DNA of 32,939 bases from assembly GCA_021300155.1 (NCBI GenBank), contig JAJTID010000176.1, positions 1-32,939 of the forward strand. Direction: 5' to 3'. A program made the position numbers and the translations under genes. Shown in pieces: positions 13,005 through 32,910 of this stretch; the stretch's first letter is position 1, and each line of letters begins with the position of its first letter. This stretch comes from Pirellula sp. (GTDB lineage Bacteria > Planctomycetota > Planctomycetia > Pirellulales > Pirellulaceae). The notes beneath the pieces were generated by a model. That model was not told where the DNA came from, searched no databases, and saw only the letters and a list, made by a program, of their open reading frames with translations.

Positions 13005-13151
13005 TTGCATCGCGTGTTGAAGTTTCGTCGCTCTTCGCCAGTTCGCCTTTATCGAAATGAGATCACGGTCTGGTATCTCTAGAACAAGTCCCAAGATTAA
13101 GGTACCCTTTATTCCCGACAATCTCAAAATCCAGAACGCCGAGTGAAGAGC

Positions 13152-14033
13152 ATGACGAGTAAGCCAAGAATCGTTCAGTTAGCTATGGTGCAAATGACTT
13201 GTACCAAAAGTCAGAAAGAGAACACCGACAAAGCGATCGCCAAAGTTGAACAAGCGGCCTCGATGGGGGCAAACATCGTGTGCTTGCAAGAGCTATTCAA
13301 TGCTCCCTACCCATGCCAGAGCGAAGATTACGAACGATTCGCATGGGCCGAAACGATCCCTGGCCCAACCAGTATCGCGATGTCCGATGTTGCAAAAAAG
13401 CTTGGTGTCGTAGTTACTGGGTCTATCTTCGAACGACGGGCTCACGGACTCTACCACAACACGGCAGTCGTTTACGACGCAGACGGTGCCCTTTGCGGGT
13501 TCTATCGCAAAATGCATATTCCAGACGACCCGCTTTACTATGAAAAGTTTTATTTCACCCCTGGAGATACCGGCTTCTCTATTGCAGAAACAAAGTTCGG
13601 AAAGATTGGTGTTGGAGTATGTTGGGATCAATGGTATCCCGAAGCTGCTAGACTTTTTGCGTTGAAAGGTGCCGAAATACTTCTTTACCCGACAGCCATC
13701 GGGTGGTTCGGCCCGGATAAACCGACATTTGGCAAGAGTCAACACGAGGCATGGGAAACGATGATGCGATCGCATGCGATTGCTAATGGCTTGTTCGTTG
13801 GTGCGGCGAATCGAGTCGGAATCGAGGACGAACTTGAGTTCTGGGGTGCATCTTTTGTGTTTGATCCTGCTGGAAACTTGTTGCACCGGGCCAAACACGA
13901 TTCAGAAGAAATCGTTTTGACAGAATGCAATCTTGATGCGATCGATACGCAGCGCACTCATTGGCCGTTCCTCCGCGATCGTCGAATCGATGCTTACCAT
14001 GATCTCACCAAGAGATGGATTGACGCAACATGA
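13152..14033 (+). CDS. aguB: N-carbamoylputrescine amidase
   Basis: A nitrilase-superfamily enzyme of about 293 residues. It hydrolyses N-carbamoylputrescine to putrescine, CO2 and ammonia in the agmatine route. The Glu-Lys-Cys triad is visible: Glu in CLQELFNAPYPCQ (residue 47), Lys in YRKMHIPDDP (120) and Cys in GVCWDQWYPEAAR (157). These flanking sequences, with YEKFYFTPGDTGF, are diagnostic of AguB within the superfamily. ATG 13152 is chosen; an in-frame GTG at 13143 adds three residues and neither has a strong ribosome site. The stop overlaps the aguA start (ATGA at 14030-14033), so the two are translationally coupled. Transcription probably starts in the 147 bp after the preceding gene. 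Confidence 0.93.
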   Translation: MTSKPRIVQLAMVQMTCTKSQKENTDKAIAKVEQAASMGANIVCLQELFNAPYPCQSEDYERFAWAETIPGPTSIAMSDVAKKLGVVVTGSIFERRAHGLYHNTAVVYDADGALCGFYRKMHIPDDPLYYEKFYFTPGDTGFSIAETKFGKIGVGVCWDQWYPEAARLFALKGAEILLYPTAIGWFGPDKPTFGKSQHEAWETMMRSHAIANGLFVGAANRVGIEDELEFWGASFVFDPAGNLLHRAKHDSEEIVLTECNLDAIDTQRTHWPFLRDRRIDAYHDLTKRWIDAT

Positions 14034-15133
14034 TTGAACCTCAAGTGGCAGGATCGGCAATGGAGGCTGGATATCGGTGGATCGCAGAATGGGAACCTCA
14101 CGAGGCAACGTGGATCGCCTGGCCTCACAATCCCAACACCTGGCCCGGATTGCTGCATGCCATCCCGCCCATCACGGAAAAGATGATACGAACGCTGGCC
14201 GAGGTCGAAAAGGTCCACGTTTTGGGTGGGCCTCCGTCGATCCTCGAGCAAGCAACGATGCAACTAGGCGACGCCAAGAATGTCTATGTCCACGACATAC
14301 CCACCAATGACTGTTGGATTCGCGACTATGGCCCAACATTTCTTCTGAACCAAAATGGAACTGGACTCGGGGCTGTTCTTTGGAGATTTAATGCATGGGG
14401 CGAAAAGTACCACCCACATGATGATGATACAAATGCAGCAGCCCTGATCTGCAAGTCAAGTGTCTTGCAATCTGAGACAATTCAATGTCGCACGTTTGTT
14501 TCGAACTTGATAGCCGAAGGCGGAGGACTAGAAACCGACGGCGAAGGAACGCTTCTGACGACTAGCAGTTGTTTACTTGCTTCGACTCGCAATCCGAATT
14601 GGACGCGGCAACTCGTCGAAGCAGAGCTGCAACGTATGTTGGCAGTTCGCAAGGTTTTATGGATTGACGGTGGCGAACTGGCTGGGGACGACACGGACAG
14701 TCATATCGATCAGCTTGTACGATTTGTGAAACCTGGTCTCGTTGTAGCTGCTGTTTCTTACAACCTGCAAGACAGCAATGCGCCGAAGCTTGCAAAACAA
14801 TTCGAAGTGCTCAAGAAGTCTACGGATGCGAACGATCGGCCCCTAGAGATCGTCCCCTTAGTAACTCCACCACCGAGATACATCCAAGGGAAAAGGGTGC
14901 CCGAGAGTTATTGCAATTTTTATATAGCGAATGAGATTGTGATCGTCCCCATGTTTGGTTTTCGAGAGACGGATGAATCAGCACTCAAGACGCTGCAAGG
15001 GTTGTTTCCTGATCGCACCATGGTAGGTATCGACGCATCGGAGTTTATTTTTGGACTAGGTGCTTTTCATTGTGCAACTCAGCAACAGCCTCGACTTAAA
15101 GCATCGCCCACAGAGCTTTCCACTCCTGCGTAG
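14030..15133 (+). CDS. aguA: Agmatine deiminase
   Basis: This 367-residue protein of the peptidyl-arginine-deiminase fold converts agmatine to N-carbamoylputrescine and ammonia, supplying AguB. Seen: WIAWPHNP near the N-terminus, NDCWIRDYGPTF, the GGGLETDGEGTLLTT segment, the DGGELAGDDTDSHIDQ active-site block with its His, and the nucleophilic Cys348 in GAFHCATQQQPR near the C-terminus. Length and motif order match AguA. It overlaps aguB by 4 bp. Its last 38 bp overlap the 3' end of the convergent gene at 15096-15566. No arginine decarboxylase, the usual agmatine source, is in the window. Confidence 0.94.
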   Translation: MIEPQVAGSAMEAGYRWIAEWEPHEATWIAWPHNPNTWPGLLHAIPPITEKMIRTLAEVEKVHVLGGPPSILEQATMQLGDAKNVYVHDIPTNDCWIRDYGPTFLLNQNGTGLGAVLWRFNAWGEKYHPHDDDTNAAALICKSSVLQSETIQCRTFVSNLIAEGGGLETDGEGTLLTTSSCLLASTRNPNWTRQLVEAELQRMLAVRKVLWIDGGELAGDDTDSHIDQLVRFVKPGLVVAAVSYNLQDSNAPKLAKQFEVLKKSTDANDRPLEIVPLVTPPPRYIQGKRVPESYCNFYIANEIVIVPMFGFRETDESALKTLQGLFPDRTMVGIDASEFIFGLGAFHCATQQQPRLKASPTELSTPA

Positions 15134-15810: not shown

Positions 15811-16689
15811 GTGAAGTGCTTGGAGCTTTTTGCAGGGATTGGTGGATTTTCAGCCGCTTTCCGAAATCAAACCAATGTTACGGCGGTCGATATTAATGAA
15901 CAAGCGGCCAGAGTTTATCGATGCAACTTTAGTCACCCCTATTTGATTGCAGAGATTTCTGCGCTTCCTGAGGAGTGGTTTCACAAGCAGTCGGCTGACC
16001 TTTGGTGGATAAGCCCTCCGTGCACACCTTTTACCAGACGAGGTAAATCGGCTGGTTTGGAGGATCCGCGTAGTGTGGCGTTGAAACACTTGATCGAGAT
16101 CGTTCCCAAAGTACTCCCGTCCCTAATTTGTATCGAGAATGTAGTAGGCTTTGAGAGATCGGATGCGTTCTTTCGAATTTGTCGAGAATGGGGAAAAGGT
16201 GGATACCATGTGGATTGGACAATCACGTGTCCCACGCAACTGGGCTGGCCAAATTTTCGTCCTCGTTTTTATGCGATCGCTAGCCTGGAAAGAAAACGGA
16301 GGTTGAGTCGAACCTATGAAAACGTAGCCCCTGTCCGTCTCTCCGATTTTCTTGATGCATCGAACGATGAAATCGAATCGCTTCGATTGGCAAATCGTAT
16401 GGCCAATCAGTATGAGAAGGCCATCGATCGTGTGCATCCGAAAAACGTAGATTCGATTGCAGCCTGCTTTACTGCCGCCTACGGAAAATCTGTCATTCGA
16501 TCCGGTTCCTACTTAGTCACAGAAACGGGGTATCGAAGATTTTCTCCTCGCGAGGTTTGTCGATTGCTTGGATTTAGCGACGACTTCGTTTTTCCGGACG
16601 AGCTTTCGCAACGACAATTATGGCACTTGCTCGGGAATTCATTGAGCATCCCGGTCATTCGAGCCGTTTTTGGGGGAGTGTTGGGTTAG
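15811..16689 (+). CDS. Dnmt2-like cytosine-5 methyltransferase (probable tRNA m5C methyltransferase)
   Basis: This 292-residue AdoMet-dependent C5 methyltransferase starts at GTG 15811 with AAGGGA about 8 nt upstream. Motif I is LELFAGIGGFSAAF, motif IV SPPCTPFTRRGK (catalytic Cys71), motif VI IENVVGFE (109-111 is ENV), motif VIII LGWPNFRPRF and motif X LLGNSLSI. Several features point to Dnmt2/TRDMT1 rather than a restriction-type DNA enzyme: SPPCxPFTRxG, ENVxGFE, the CFT motif at 219-221 in CFTAAYGKS, and RRFSPREVCRLLGF followed by FxFP. The variable region is too short for a typical sequence-specific DNA target-recognition domain. No restriction endonuclease gene is adjacent. Dnmt2 methylates C38 of tRNA; that activity is inferred here. 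A solitary DNA methyltransferase is the alternative. Confidence 0.8.
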   Translation: MKCLELFAGIGGFSAAFRNQTNVTAVDINEQAARVYRCNFSHPYLIAEISALPEEWFHKQSADLWWISPPCTPFTRRGKSAGLEDPRSVALKHLIEIVPKVLPSLICIENVVGFERSDAFFRICREWGKGGYHVDWTITCPTQLGWPNFRPRFYAIASLERKRRLSRTYENVAPVRLSDFLDASNDEIESLRLANRMANQYEKAIDRVHPKNVDSIAACFTAAYGKSVIRSGSYLVTETGYRRFSPREVCRLLGFSDDFVFPDELSQRQLWHLLGNSLSIPVIRAVFGGVLG

Positions 16690-18603: not shown

Positions 18604-19761
18604 CTATCGCTGCATTGCCAAAACAGGTACATCGTCACCGAGAGTCCACTCTTTAAAGTTGTCCGGATTTCGGTGAACTCGGCGATAAACGGTGTCACGT
18701 TCGACTGGATCCCTGCCGGCCTCGACGATCAGATTCTTAATTTGTTCAATCGTCAACATCTCAGGAGTAGTTGCTCCCGCGTCGTGGTATATTAGCTCGT
18801 GCCGAACCGTACCATCGATATCATCGGCACCATAAGCGAGGGCGGTCTGTGCGGTACCTATCCCAAGCATAATCCAATATGCCTTGATGTGCGGAACATT
18901 ATCAAGCATCAGTCGAGAGATTGCCATCGTCCTCAAATCCATCAATGCGGACGGCTTTTTCAAATTGGACAGTTTGGTGTTCTCCGGATGAAACGCTAAT
19001 GGAATAAACGTCTGAAAACCACCGGTCTTGTCTTGTAGATCGCGCAGCTTAAGCAAGTGATCGATTCGATGGTAAGGCTGCTCGACATGTCCGTACAACA
19101 TAGTGCAGTTGGTCTTCAAACCGATCTCGTGAGCCGCTTGGTGAATCTCGATCCATTTGTGAGCATTCGCTTTGTGCTCGCACAGTTGATCACGCACTTC
19201 AGGATGAAATATCTCAGCCCCTCCGCCCGGCATACTGCCGAGCCCCGCTTCGCGAAGATCGGTTAGAATTTCTTTCGACGATTTCTTGGTCAAGAATTCG
19301 AACCAGTTGATTTCTACGGCGGTCCAGCCCTTCAAGTGAATTTGAGGATACGCATTATGGAGTGTCTCTAGAATACCGCGATACCAATCATATCCGAGTT
19401 TGTGATGCAACCCTCCTACAATATGCATCTCGGTACAGCCATTGTCTTCGGCCTCTTTACCGCGAGCCAAAATCTGTTCTTCGCTCATGGCGTACCCTTT
19501 CGGATCCCGAAGGTCGGCGCGAAACGCACAAAAGCGGCATCGGTAGACACACACGTTCGTAGGATTGAGATGGGTATTGATGTTGTAGTAACCAACGTTT
19601 CCATTGATCCTCTCGCGAACGTAATTCGCTAACTCACCAACCTCATGCAGAGGCACCTCTGGTGAATAGAGGAAAATCCCATCTTCCATTCCGAGTCGTC
19701 CACCATTCTCTACAGTTTCGCGAATGGAACGCATGCGATCTTGAATTTTCGGTGCAATCAT
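18604..19761 (-). CDS. mqnE: Aminofutalosine synthase (radical SAM)
   Basis: This 385-residue radical SAM enzyme of the futalosine menaquinone pathway joins a chorismate-derived enolpyruvyl benzoate to adenosyl radical, giving aminofutalosine. The [4Fe-4S] ligands are CVYRCRFC (Cys71, Cys75, Cys78). MqnE-type features include HIVGGLHHKLGYDWY, KGWTAVEINWF, SMPGGGAEIFHPEVR and CTMLYGHVEQ; the PGGGAEIF block separates MqnE from the paralogue MqnC. It is the last gene of a minus-strand operon, 4 bp after mqnP. The other early futalosine genes (mqnA, B, C, D) are not in this window. Confidence 0.93.
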   Translation of the reverse strand: MIAPKIQDRMRSIRETVENGGRLGMEDGIFLYSPEVPLHEVGELANYVRERINGNVGYYNINTHLNPTNVCVYRCRFCAFRADLRDPKGYAMSEEQILARGKEAEDNGCTEMHIVGGLHHKLGYDWYRGILETLHNAYPQIHLKGWTAVEINWFEFLTKKSSKEILTDLREAGLGSMPGGGAEIFHPEVRDQLCEHKANAHKWIEIHQAAHEIGLKTNCTMLYGHVEQPYHRIDHLLKLRDLQDKTGGFQTFIPLAFHPENTKLSNLKKPSALMDLRTMAISRLMLDNVPHIKAYWIMLGIGTAQTALAYGADDIDGTVRHELIYHDAGATTPEMLTIEQIKNLIVEAGRDPVERDTVYRRVHRNPDNFKEWTLGDDVPVLAMQR

Positions 19762-19765
19762 TTTG

Positions 19766-20854
19766 TTATCTCAACCAAGCATCGAGGCTTCCAGCAAAAA
19801 GGAACACCAAGCTTACAACAGAGTTTAATTGAAAAAATGCAAAGTTTACGCGTTCCAGAGACTTCTCCGATACAACGCTGTGCTCCCAAGCCAGAAGAAG
19901 CCCCACCGCCACGAGCGCGGTCCAAAACAACCAGCCTAAACTCAGCTGTGGAACCGCAAAAGTCATAGCAAAAGCAACTATCCACATCAACAAGTGACAC
20001 GACTTGGCAACTCGCAGAGCATTTAACACTCCAATTTTAGCGGGTATGCTAAACAATTCCGCTTGTGCATCGTATTCCTGATCTTGGCATGCATAGATGA
20101 TGTCGAATCCGGAAACCCAGAACAACACAACCATTGCCAACCAAACCGCAGGAGCAAGATCGGATGGATGATTGATCAGTAGGCTACCGCGCAGTGCAAT
20201 CCAGGCACATATCGGAGCAAGCATCAGGGCAGCTCCGAGCCAGAAATGTGCGAACCGAGTGAAGCGTTTCGTCAGGCTATAACCCGCGAGAAAGCAAAGT
20301 ACGGGCAGGCACAGGATGAGTGGCCAGTAATTCGGGAGGAACAAGGCACACCCGGCAACAAACAATACAGCACACCCAACGATAAACAAGGTTACACTCG
20401 TGCGAGTCAGTTCGCCGGCAGGTAGATGCCGTTTGGCAGTTCGAGGATTCTCGGCATCGACATCGTGATCGAACAAACGATTGACTGCCATGGCAAAGCT
20501 TCTGGCTGCAACCATGCAAATCAAAATACCAGCGAGGTCTTGCCATCGGAAACGCAAGTAACTTTCAGTCATGACTGCCTCCGTAGCCGGGAGCGGCACC
20601 AAATAGGCCCATACCGTTGCCAGCAATGCAAACGGCAAAGCAAAAATAGTATGACTGAACCGAATCAATTCAAAAAACTTTCGCATTCCGCCAAGCATCC
20701 GGTTCCCATCGATGCTGTTTGGTGCTTTGCTCGGAGGCCTGCTTGTCGACGATTTACCATCGGCAATCTCGGGCGCAGCGACTTGTTTACTCTCTAGTCG
20801 CTTCTTTGCCAATTTCTTTTCCAGCGACTGTTTGTCCAACGAGTGCTCTTTCAT
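19766..20854 (-). CDS. mqnP: UbiA-family prenyltransferase, menaquinone type
   Basis: This protein of about 362 residues has roughly eight to nine membrane segments and prenylates an aromatic menaquinone precursor. First Asp-rich motif: NRLFDHDVD (Asn125, Asp129, Asp133); second: YACQDQEYD. ATG 20854 is clearly the start: it has AAGGAGGGCTT directly upstream and its ATGA overlaps the ubiX stop. A longer frame back to 20893 would run into ubiX and should not be used. A hydrophilic Lys/Ser-rich extension of about 55 residues precedes the first membrane segment, which is longer than in most UbiA proteins. In the futalosine pathway the corresponding enzyme is called MqnP; a 4-hydroxybenzoate specificity is the alternative but is disfavoured by the neighbours. 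Confidence 0.88.
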   Translation of the reverse strand: MKEHSLDKQSLEKKLAKKRLESKQVAAPEIADGKSSTSRPPSKAPNSIDGNRMLGGMRKFFELIRFSHTIFALPFALLATVWAYLVPLPATEAVMTESYLRFRWQDLAGILICMVAARSFAMAVNRLFDHDVDAENPRTAKRHLPAGELTRTSVTLFIVGCAVLFVAGCALFLPNYWPLILCLPVLCFLAGYSLTKRFTRFAHFWLGAALMLAPICAWIALRGSLLINHPSDLAPAVWLAMVVLFWVSGFDIIYACQDQEYDAQAELFSIPAKIGVLNALRVAKSCHLLMWIVAFAMTFAVPQLSLGWLFWTALVAVGLLLAWEHSVVSEKSLERVNFAFFQLNSVVSLVFLFAGSLDAWLR

Positions 20855-21537
20855 AAGCCCTCCTTTGACATAGCCACTGGCGGTGCCCCCCATCGTTGCA
20901 TCAAAGTGTGAGGTATCTTTAGATGATCTAGAATCCTAGCAACAATAAAGTCCACTAAGTCCACAATAGATTCTACTTGGTGGTACCACCCCGGGGAGGC
21001 TGGCATAACCACGGCCCCCGCTTCGGACGCACGCTGCATATTCTGAATATAGAACGACGACAGCGGTGTTTCACGTGGGACCAAGATCAACTTGCGATGC
21101 TCTTTGATATGCACGTCTGCAGCTCGGACTATCAGGTTGTTAGATGCTGCATGAACGATCCCGGAAAGAGTGGAACCACTGCATGGGCAAATTACCATAC
21201 CGCGTGTTAGAAACGATCCGCTGGCGATCGGTGTCAGGTAGTCAGAATACTCATGGACTCGAATCTGACTTGCATACTCAGCGCATTGCTTCCGTTCGAG
21301 TGCTGGCCATCGGGATGAGTTCGGCCAACAGTACTGAAGTAATGGTGTTATGTCTTTTCGATTCATGCCGAGCTGTAGCCCGAGCTCTTGTCGAACAACT
21401 TCGGCTCCGGAAGGGCTAACAACGACATGCATGGGTACTTGGGAAGTGGCCAAACATTGAATCAACCTAGCGGCATACACAGCGCCGCTCGCTCCGGTGA
21501 TACCAACGACCAGCGGGAGATTTGAATCATCGCTCAT
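20851..21537 (-). CDS. ubiX: UbiX-family flavin prenyltransferase
   Basis: A 228-residue protein that prenylates FMN to make prFMN, the cofactor of UbiD-type decarboxylases. Seen: [15 protein letters not shown] at the N-terminus (FMN phosphate site), [44 protein letters not shown] and a C-terminal PASPGWY segment, all UbiX signatures. It is about 30 residues longer than E. coli UbiX (189), partly through an insert around residues 60-100. The start overlaps the menG/ubiE stop (ATGA) and the stop overlaps mqnP. In futalosine-pathway organisms a UbiX homologue (MqnM) with a UbiD homologue (MqnL) is required for menaquinone; no ubiD is in this window. Confidence 0.93.
20854..20870 (-). promoter_or_regulatory. 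Strong ribosome binding site that fixes the mqnP start
   Basis: On the minus strand, AAGGAGG followed by GCTT precedes ATG at 20854. This near-perfect Shine-Dalgarno sits inside the 3' end of ubiX and decides the start against the longer upstream frame. Most other genes in the window have weak sites. Confidence 0.8.
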
Positions 21538-22298
21538 GATGCCCTCTTCGTGCCAACGTATAGCGTCACAACACCCAGAGTCATCGGAAGCATGGTGACG
21601 TCGGCTAAACCCGCAGACCGCATCGTTGCAACCAATTCTTCACCGCAAGGAAACTGCTGAACGCTCTGCGGCAAGTATTCATACGCAGACCTATCGTTCC
21701 TTGCCATCGCTTGTCCGATGCGTGGCAAGACATGCAAGAAATATGCATTGTAGAGCTGTCGCAGTCCGAACATTCTCGGCTTCGAGAACTCCAAAACAGC
21801 GATTTTCCCGTTCGGCTGTGCCACGCGAATCATCTCACCTAGGCCGACCATGGTGTCTGCCACGTTGCGGAGCCCAAATGCAACGGAAACGCATTGGAAA
21901 TGGTTGTCGGGGAAAGGAAGATCTTGAGTATCCGCTTCGATAAACTGTAGATTGTCGAATCCTGGCAGTGTCTTTGCCTGTTTCGTCCTTGCAATGTCCA
22001 GCATCGGGGCGCAAAAATCGGTACCGACAACTTCAACCGTTGGTCCGAGCTCGCGCGCGATCGCGAGGGCTAGGTCGCCAGTCCCCGTGCAAACATCAAG
22101 CACCGGAACTCCGGGTGTCAGGTCGAGAAGTTTGAGAGTTTTCGATCTCCAACGCTTGTCGATATTTAGGGACAAAACATGGTTCATCAGATCGTATCGT
22201 GGAGCGATCTGCGCGAACATATCTCGAACCCGATCCCCGGATTTGTCTAAGGTTTTTGTAGTTGCCACAAGATTCTTTTCGCGGAGCGTTGCATTCAT
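21534..22298 (-). CDS. menG: Demethylmenaquinone methyltransferase (UbiE/MenG)
   Basis: This 254-residue AdoMet-dependent methyltransferase performs the C-methylation that completes menaquinone. Diagnostic segments: [33 protein letters not shown] (AdoMet motif I), GTDFCAPML and [12 protein letters not shown]. It is the first gene of the four-gene menaquinone unit, and its stop overlaps ubiX by ATGA. The promoter probably lies in the 109 bp between it and the S1-domain gene, although read-through from that gene is possible. Confidence 0.94.
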
Positions 22299-32514: not shown

Positions 32515-32586
32515 GGACTGGTAGCTGAGACGGTATAGCGCTGGCCTGAAGAGCCGGAGAGGAGGGTTCGAGCACCTCCCAGTCCA
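32515..32586 (+). tRNA. tRNA-Phe(GAA), slightly irregular
   Basis: The 72-nt cloverleaf has acceptor GGACTGG/CCAGTCC (perfect), D stem GCTG/TAGC with GG in the loop, anticodon stem CTGGC/GCCGG and loop CTGAAGA (anticodon GAA), a 4-base variable region and T loop TTCGAGC. The normally invariant 53-61 pair is G-A rather than G-C. Discriminator A is followed by CTGA; CCA is not encoded. Confidence 0.8.
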
Positions 32587-32657
32587 CTGAATGCGTTGCT
32601 TGCAAAAAACACTTTGAGAATAACTGCGCTAGAGGTGCGCACCTACATAACCAATAT

Positions 32658-32730
32658 GGCTCGTTCAACTTCTGGTGAGGTTGCTGGTCTTTCAAGCCAG
32701 CTAGGTCGGGTTCGAATCCCACACGAGTCA
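32658..32730 (+). tRNA. tRNA-Glu(TTC), irregular T stem
   Basis: The 73-nt cloverleaf has acceptor GGCTCGT/ACGAGTC (one G-U), D stem AACT/GGTT, anticodon stem CTGGT/GCCAG, loop CTTTCAA (anticodon TTC) and T loop TTCGAAT. The outer two T-stem pairs are mismatched (TCGGG against CCCAC). Discriminator A is followed by CTGA, with no encoded CCA. Confidence 0.75.
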
Positions 32731-32744
32731 CTGACATAACTAAT

Positions 32745-32812
32745 GGGCTTGCCGACGGGTCGGCGCTTTGACTTGCAATCAAGGCTACAGGGTTCAACTC
32801 CCTGCAGGTCCA
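32745..32812 (+). tRNA. tRNA-Ala(TGC), shortened D arm
   Basis: A 68-nt gene with acceptor GGGCTTG/CAGGTCC carrying G3-U70, the main alanine identity element. The anticodon stem is TTTGA/TCAAG with loop CTTGCAA (anticodon TGC), and the T arm CAGGG/CCCTG is perfect. Only 15 nt lie between acceptor and anticodon stems, and they fold as a tight GC hairpin (GCCGA/TCGGC) without the usual D-loop GG. No encoded CCA; CTGA follows the discriminator. Confidence 0.68.
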
Positions 32813-32828
32813 CTGACACAACAACTAT

Positions 32829-32901
32829 CGGGCAGAGGTGCAGATGGGAGCACGCCTGCTTTGGGAGCAGGAGGATCTCGGTTCGACTCCGAGGTGCCCG
32901 A
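32829..32901 (+). tRNA. tRNA-Pro(TGG)
   Basis: The 73-nt cloverleaf has acceptor CGGGCAG/GTGCCCG, including C1-G72 as expected for bacterial tRNA-Pro and a 7-66 G-G mismatch. D stem GTGC/GCAC, anticodon stem CCTGC/GCAGG with loop TTTGGGA (anticodon TGG), T arm CTCGG/CCGAG. Position 8 is A instead of the near-universal T. Discriminator A is followed by CTGA, with no encoded CCA. Confidence 0.82.
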
Positions 32902-32910
32902 CTGAAGAGG

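Follow-up and report, generated by a model that had tools for sequence, protein, structure and literature searches.

A probable Dnmt2-type tRNA (cytosine-38-C5) methyltransferase gene in a Pirellula-like planctomycete

Dnmt2, best known from animals, is a puzzle enzyme: it marks tRNA, which is modified by a DNA-methylase fold. An open reading frame (ORF) in a contig of Pirellula sp. (JAJTID010000176.1, positions 1 to 32,939; this whole stretch of 32,939 nucleotides is referred to as the window) raises the question of whether a planctomycete carries such an enzyme or a DNA methylase that resembles it. The gene likely encodes a bacterial Dnmt2 (TRDMT1-type) tRNA (cytosine-38-C5) methyltransferase, and the enzyme probably marks tRNA rather than being part of a DNA restriction system. 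The gene and the motifs placed by alignment were as follows.

15811..16689, + strand: dnmt2-like gene, 292 aa, GTG start; no second PF00145 gene (C5-cytosine methylase) found in the genome's contigs
16006..16044, + strand: motif IV region WISPPCTPFTRRG, with the catalytic Cys at aa 71 (alignment)
16135..16143, + strand: motif VI ENV, aa 109-111 (alignment)
16249..16266, + strand: PNFRPR, aa 147-152, at the motif VIII position, with Asn148 (alignment)
16465..16473, + strand: CFT, aa 219-221, the Dnmt2 signature (alignment; signature as given in the accessible text of PMC3227630)
16534..16575, + strand: RRFSPREVCRLLGF, aa 242-255, motif IX region (alignment)

The gene and its catalytic motifs

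PF00145 was the only Pfam family matched by the 292-aa protein (E 8.3e-38), with an alignment spanning aa 1-287 of 292 and no companion domains. Orthologues without stops were present in 13 of 59 other relatives searched, at 43-81% identity to the window protein, two of them partial (G013 at a contig end and G011 as one frame in two pieces). Because of the PF00145 match and the stop-free orthologues, the ORF is read as a genuine gene and not a chance frame. Its G+C (0.484) was close to that of the window (0.499), so composition gives no sign of a fresh import.

The four blocks quoted in an earlier note on this DNA, made without database searches, were all located in the protein (SPPCTPFTRRGK at aa 68-79, IENVVGFE at 108-115, CFTAAYG at 219-225 and RRFSPREVCRLLGF at 242-255), which carries the C5-methyltransferase catalytic motifs PPC, ENV and Arg-x-Arg. 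SPPC, ENV, R150 and R152 were invariant across 44 aligned rows; in the larger set of bacterial rows (n = 82) the catalytic Cys was kept in 80, and the Glu of ENV and both motif VIII Arg residues in all 82. A CFT signature beside motif IX has been described for Dnmt2 (accessible text of PMC3227630). The suggestion that CFT is a Dnmt2 hallmark stood in part: it occurs in the window protein and in four of four eukaryotic Dnmt2 chains, but it was not invariant in the bacterial clade (63/82 CFT, 10 CFA, 4 CFG, 3 TFT, 1 CFM, 1 VFT), and many genus members carry CFA or CFG instead. The DNA-methylase rows were trimmed in this alignment, so that CFT absence there carries no weight. Asn at aa 148 was shared by the window protein, 55/82 bacterial rows and 4/4 eukaryotic chains; in the sampled DNA methyltransferases the position held Gln in 22/23 and a gap in 1/23.

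Placement among cytosine-5 methyltransferases

When the window protein was compared with PDB chains, human DNMT2 (1g55) matched at E 7e-39 and M.HhaI at 2e-13. Other Dnmt2 chains matched at 5e-32 (6fdf, presumably S. pombe Pmt1), 5e-27 (4h0n, presumably Spodoptera) and 2e-26 (3qv2, presumably Entamoeba). Against a profile built from nine relatives, human DNMT2 scored 224 bits and M.HhaI about 103. For an ordinary m5C methylase of a genus relative (L020), used as a control, the top PDB match was a bacterial cytosine methyltransferase, followed by Dnmt1, HaeIII and HhaI, and no chain named Dnmt2 was among its 41 PDB matches at E <= 1e-10.

Scores against the Dnmt2 profile were bimodal: no bacterial Dnmt2 ORF fell below 257 bits, and none of the planctomycete DNA methylases in hand rose above 97. 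Mobile carriers of Dnmt2 were considered and rejected, the highest score among 84 viral, phage and plasmid loci (the best 80 of 282 related viral loci plus four phage or plasmid genes) being 124.8 bits versus at least 257 for the bacterial clade. Related phage records numbered 344 and plasmid records 205, at <60% identity (the 16 matches listed lay at 26-30%); the profile scores cover part of these records.

Annotation libraries gave the window protein other names: the NCBIfam dcm model scored 119.8 bits, above its cut-off, and PADLOC MTase_II scored 120.7 bits. Models that name a Dnmt2-type enzyme a type II or dcm DNA methylase are a likely source of wrong annotation, and the labelling of such genes as DNA or restriction methylases is a warning to users of these libraries.

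Three trees were built, and each kept the bacterial and four eukaryotic Dnmt2 sequences together, separate from every DNA m5C methyltransferase sampled. Tree 1 (82 bacterial, 4 eukaryotic and 23 DNA-methylase rows) omitted duplicates and one truncated protein present twice, had its outgroup rows trimmed to the matched part, and separated Dnmt2 from the DNA methylases with an SH-aLRT of 100. Trees 2 and 3 used subsets chosen by us, with whole ORFs as outgroup rows; the split was supported at 100/96 in tree 2 (47 bacterial, 4 eukaryotic, 14 DNA-methylase rows) and at 99/93 in tree 3 (32 bacterial, 4 eukaryotic, 27 DNA-methylase rows including phage, plasmid and viral ones). The DNA methylases nearest to Dnmt2 in tree 3 (L438, L024 and L028) were all long-branched. 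The earlier note had held that the protein resembles Dnmt2/TRDMT1 more than restriction-type enzymes and had named placement inside a DNA-methyltransferase clade as evidence to the contrary; the likeness was upheld by the PDB ranking, the control methylase and the three trees, and no such placement occurred. The window protein is accordingly described here as a Dnmt2 homologue, with its fold assigned from sequence, and as a bacterial Dnmt2 from a Pirellula-like planctomycete it adds a member to a known kind of enzyme.

Monophyly of bacterial Dnmt2 was weak in tree 1 (62) and tree 2 (68/78) and strong in tree 3 (99/97), where the bacterial sequences formed a sister clade and were not nested among the four eukaryotes. 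Geobacteraceae homologues fell inside the same bacterial clade as the window protein in all three trees. Constraining two Geobacteraceae rows and the four eukaryotes to one clade was rejected (p-AU 0.0022), which speaks against the transfer from eukaryotes to Geobacter suggested in 2011 (accessible text of PMC3227630), within the limits of four eukaryotic chains and deep branches. The Dnmt2 of two metagenome-assembled genomes, titled Klebsiella pneumoniae (L172, probably a mislabel) and Acidimicrobiia (L152), branched amid deltaproteobacterial and planctomycete rows.

Distribution, genomic context and candidate tRNA substrates

A dnmt2 orthologue was found in 12 of 26 other genomes of the genus, 1 of 10 from the family's other genera and 0 of 23 from the rest of the order; two further genus matches at about 1e-7 were ordinary methylases, and some genomes were incomplete. 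In an evenly drawn set of Planctomycetota (148 genomes including its own), 2 of the 147 others carried dnmt2 at E <= 1e-30, and the gene is thus uncommon within the phylum. A scan of GTDB genomes at E <= 1e-3 gave 221 loci with a relative, and the best 80 of these scored 268-486 bits, all at what is read as Dnmt2 level. By record titles, with 'Deltaproteobacteria'-type titles mapped roughly and nearly all records being metagenome-assembled genomes, these best 80 comprised 37 Planctomycetota, 16 Thermodesulfobacteriota (including Geobacter, Desulfuromonas and Syntrophales), 9 Myxococcota, 8 Acidobacteriota, 4 Pseudomonadota, 1 Actinomycetota and 5 without a phylum. Geobacter had been named as the known bacterial case in the earlier note, and the accessible text of a 2011 study likewise places bacterial Dnmt2 only in Geobacter (PMC3227630). 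That view gives way here, bacterial Dnmt2 as assigned by profile score spanning multiple phyla among the best 80 of 221 loci. In a search run largely without subscription journals and preprints, no paper dealing with Dnmt2 in either Planctomycetes or Acidobacteria was found; accessible parts of PMC12344493, PMC4893491 and PMC9051087 were also drawn on.

In the 260 contigs of the genome, dnmt2 was the only PF00145 gene found, and PADLOC recognised no family, and no restriction-modification partner, in the three neighbouring proteins scanned. A VWA-domain gene lies directly downstream of dnmt2 in the window. Of 13 loci compared, including four on contigs <5 kb, two had this VWA gene near dnmt2, namely L109 (G024) and L110 (G006). 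Searches of 18 other genus genomes found the VWA gene in 17. With limits of E <= 0.01 and about 1.5 kb, dnmt2 was found alongside it in L328 (G006) alone among VWA loci L328-L354. The VWA gene is widespread in the genus and rarely near dnmt2, and the position of dnmt2 therefore varies among genus members. Across the bacterial clade no conserved operon was seen around dnmt2. A flanking gene with a glycoside-hydrolase-like representative was common to seven loci (L113-L118 and L120), and a neighbour cluster with a sulfatase representative occurred in six of these and in L109, L121 and L154. The largest common neighbour cluster (45 loci) was discarded, as by position it consisted of opposite-strand ORFs overlying dnmt2 itself.

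Elsewhere in the window, a carbon-nitrogen hydrolase gene adjoins a PAD_porph (agmatine-deiminase-type) gene by Pfam (13143-15133), probably a putrescine-making pair. On the minus strand at 18604-22298, a Radical-SAM/CofH_C gene (Pfam) is followed by UbiA-, UbiX- and UbiE-like ORFs recognised by eye, likely futalosine-type menaquinone genes.

At least 59 tRNAs were found in the genome with Infernal (150 of 309 first-look candidates scored), and ARAGORN gave 65 distinct tRNA sequences on the Infernal-scored stretches. The canonical tRNA-Glu(UUC) has the anticodon loop CUUUCAC, with C38, and the tRNA-Asp that was found has the loop CUGUCGA, with A38. C38 was also present in tRNA-His(GUG) and, in extra arrays, in one Leu(UAA) and two Val(GAC); the array tRNA-Val(GAC) has the loop AUGACAC, and the canonical tRNA-Val(GAC) has U38. 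The main eukaryotic Dnmt2 substrate is tRNA-Asp, and that listed for Geobacter is tRNA-Glu (accessible text of PMC5372726). With C38 on tRNA-Glu and A38 on tRNA-Asp, the main eukaryotic substrate is therefore unavailable in this genome and the substrate listed for Geobacter is available, and tRNA-Glu(UUC) would be the expected target. The four tRNAs at the window end had been described as lacking C38 and as not being the expected substrates; all four have A38, and the expected substrate, tRNA-Glu with C38, lies elsewhere in the genome.

The extra tRNA arrays (32515-32902 of the window, and C156 30385-33400, C219 7919-9697 and C103 4809-5174 of the same genome, G000) hold mostly low-scoring, divergent tRNAs and look like mobile tRNA arrays. 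The stretch from anticodon to T-arm of the array tRNA-Glu has close copies in G060:C751 and G074:C83. In this genome the array tRNA-Glu carries A38, and C38 is frequent on the array-type tRNA-Asp of other genomes, the reverse of the canonical tRNAs here.

Position 38 was then read in the genomes of 35 loci picked from the best 80, the window's genus relatives being excluded. In this tally, made by hand, in part from pattern matches and with array-type copies set aside, C38 was present on tRNA-Glu, tRNA-Asp or both in 33/35 other Dnmt2-bearing genomes; in each of the remaining two (G062 and G065) only one of these tRNAs was found, and it lacked C38. The 28 genomes with both tRNAs read (G067 counted via tRNA-Glu(CUC)) divided into 9 with C38 on tRNA-Glu and not tRNA-Asp, 9 with the opposite, 9 with both and 1 with C on tRNA-Asp and a mixed tRNA-Glu. 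For Planctomycetota lacking Dnmt2 and with both tRNAs read, C38 occurred in 7/22 among the matches listed (patterns alone, hand tally), in a comparison uncorrected for kinship between sets of differing make-up and search effort. Within the genus, tRNA-Glu C38 was found in 23/26 relatives, 12 of the 23 without dnmt2, and it was present as well in six more distant Dnmt2-less relatives (L103-L108). Strict coupling of C38 to dnmt2 is ruled out by these Dnmt2-less relatives; C38 is kept without the gene and is therefore at best a precondition, independent of the enzyme.

Sister pairs of enzymes were found in hosts of opposite C38 type (L154/L156 at 98/86 and L149/L193 at 99/88 in tree 2); in tree 3 the former pair was unresolved and the latter held (99/91). 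We tentatively consider it possible, rather than probable, that the bacterial Dnmt2 clade, spanning several phyla, is old and stands as sister to its eukaryotic counterpart rather than being a recent eukaryotic gift, and that it spread across lineages differing in which tRNA bears C38 and switched substrate between tRNA-Glu (planctomycetes such as this one) and tRNA-Asp (Acidobacteriota) as set by the host tRNAs. The interest of the finding lies in how broad the clade is and in how the available substrates divide. With hosts offering C38 on tRNA-Glu, tRNA-Asp or both, origin and tRNA choice become testable, and a comparison of natural enzyme-tRNA pairs is a route to the basis of that choice.

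Alternative readings and comparison with known enzymes

The probable tRNA-marking role is proposed because the Dnmt2 gene stands alone and the genome's own tRNA-Glu carries the target base C38. The enzyme would bind the anticodon loop of tRNA-Glu with C38 flipped out, and C5 of this base would be methylated via Cys71 and S-adenosylmethionine by DNA-methyltransferase-like chemistry, as follows from the known chemistry of the family. The mark may tune or protect tRNA-Glu. C38 methylation reportedly affects tRNA charging in mouse (accessible text of PMC4860778), and a charging effect in this organism would be a guess.

That the gene instead encodes a solo or restriction-associated M.HhaI/Dcm-type DNA (cytosine-5) methyltransferase merely resembling Dnmt2 is improbable. 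The PF00145, dcm superfamily and PADLOC MTase_II (120.7 bits) matches would fit such an enzyme, as would the patchy presence of dnmt2 and its changing neighbourhoods, since mobile solo DNA methylases may likewise change surroundings. Against this, the window protein is placed apart from the DNA methylases sampled in each tree (23, 14 and 27), Dnmt2 chains match it far better than M.HhaI does, and none of the three neighbours scanned is recognised by PADLOC; Asn148 versus Gln in 22/23 DNA methylases points the same way, though Asn is found in only 55/82 of the bacterial clade. It is similarly improbable that the protein is a Dnmt2 with another main RNA target, such as the array tRNA-Val(GAC), with its loop AUGACAC, or tRNA-His(GUG), both of which have C38. 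Although tRNA-Val is also used by mouse and fly Dnmt2, the Geobacter precedent is tRNA-Glu (both in the accessible text of PMC5372726), the arrays look accessory and the canonical tRNA-Val(GAC) has U38. That the protein is in decay or moonlights, and so has little activity, is highly improbable: the many genus members with CFA or CFG and the failure to find dnmt2 in 14/26 other genus genomes, some incomplete, would suit this, but in the window protein CFT, the ENV motif, the catalytic Cys and the two Arg residues of motif VIII are intact, and the dnmt2 frames are open in relatives. The preferred reading thus stays that of a Dnmt2-type enzyme with tRNA-Glu as its expected target.

Among known systems, M.HhaI/Dcm-type enzymes share the methylase motifs, PF00145 and the dcm superfamily model with the window protein; they form a separate clade and have Gln in motif VIII where the window protein has Asn, and no restriction partner of this kind was recognised among the three neighbours of the gene. 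Eukaryotic Dnmt2/TRDMT1 has the catalytic motifs and CFT in common with the window protein and is its best sequence match among solved structures. Full human Dnmt2 is 391 aa, longer than the window protein by about 100 residues. The earlier note's description of a short, minimal version holds relative to the human enzyme, but the length is usual in the bacterial clade (median 296 aa over the matched domain). The eukaryotic enzyme further differs in its main substrate, tRNA-Asp, which lacks C38 in the window's genome. The Dnmt2 of Geobacter sulfurreducens is GSU0227 (accessible text of PMC5456315) and is, like the window protein, a bacterial Dnmt2. Over the best segment, the seven Geobacter or Geobacteraceae homologues shared 35-39% identity with the window protein; G. 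sulfurreducens itself was absent from the loci compared. C38 was present on tRNA-Glu in 3/3 Geobacteraceae genomes checked, as in the Pirellula-like genome; the same three also have C38 on tRNA-Asp, whereas tRNA-Asp here has A38.
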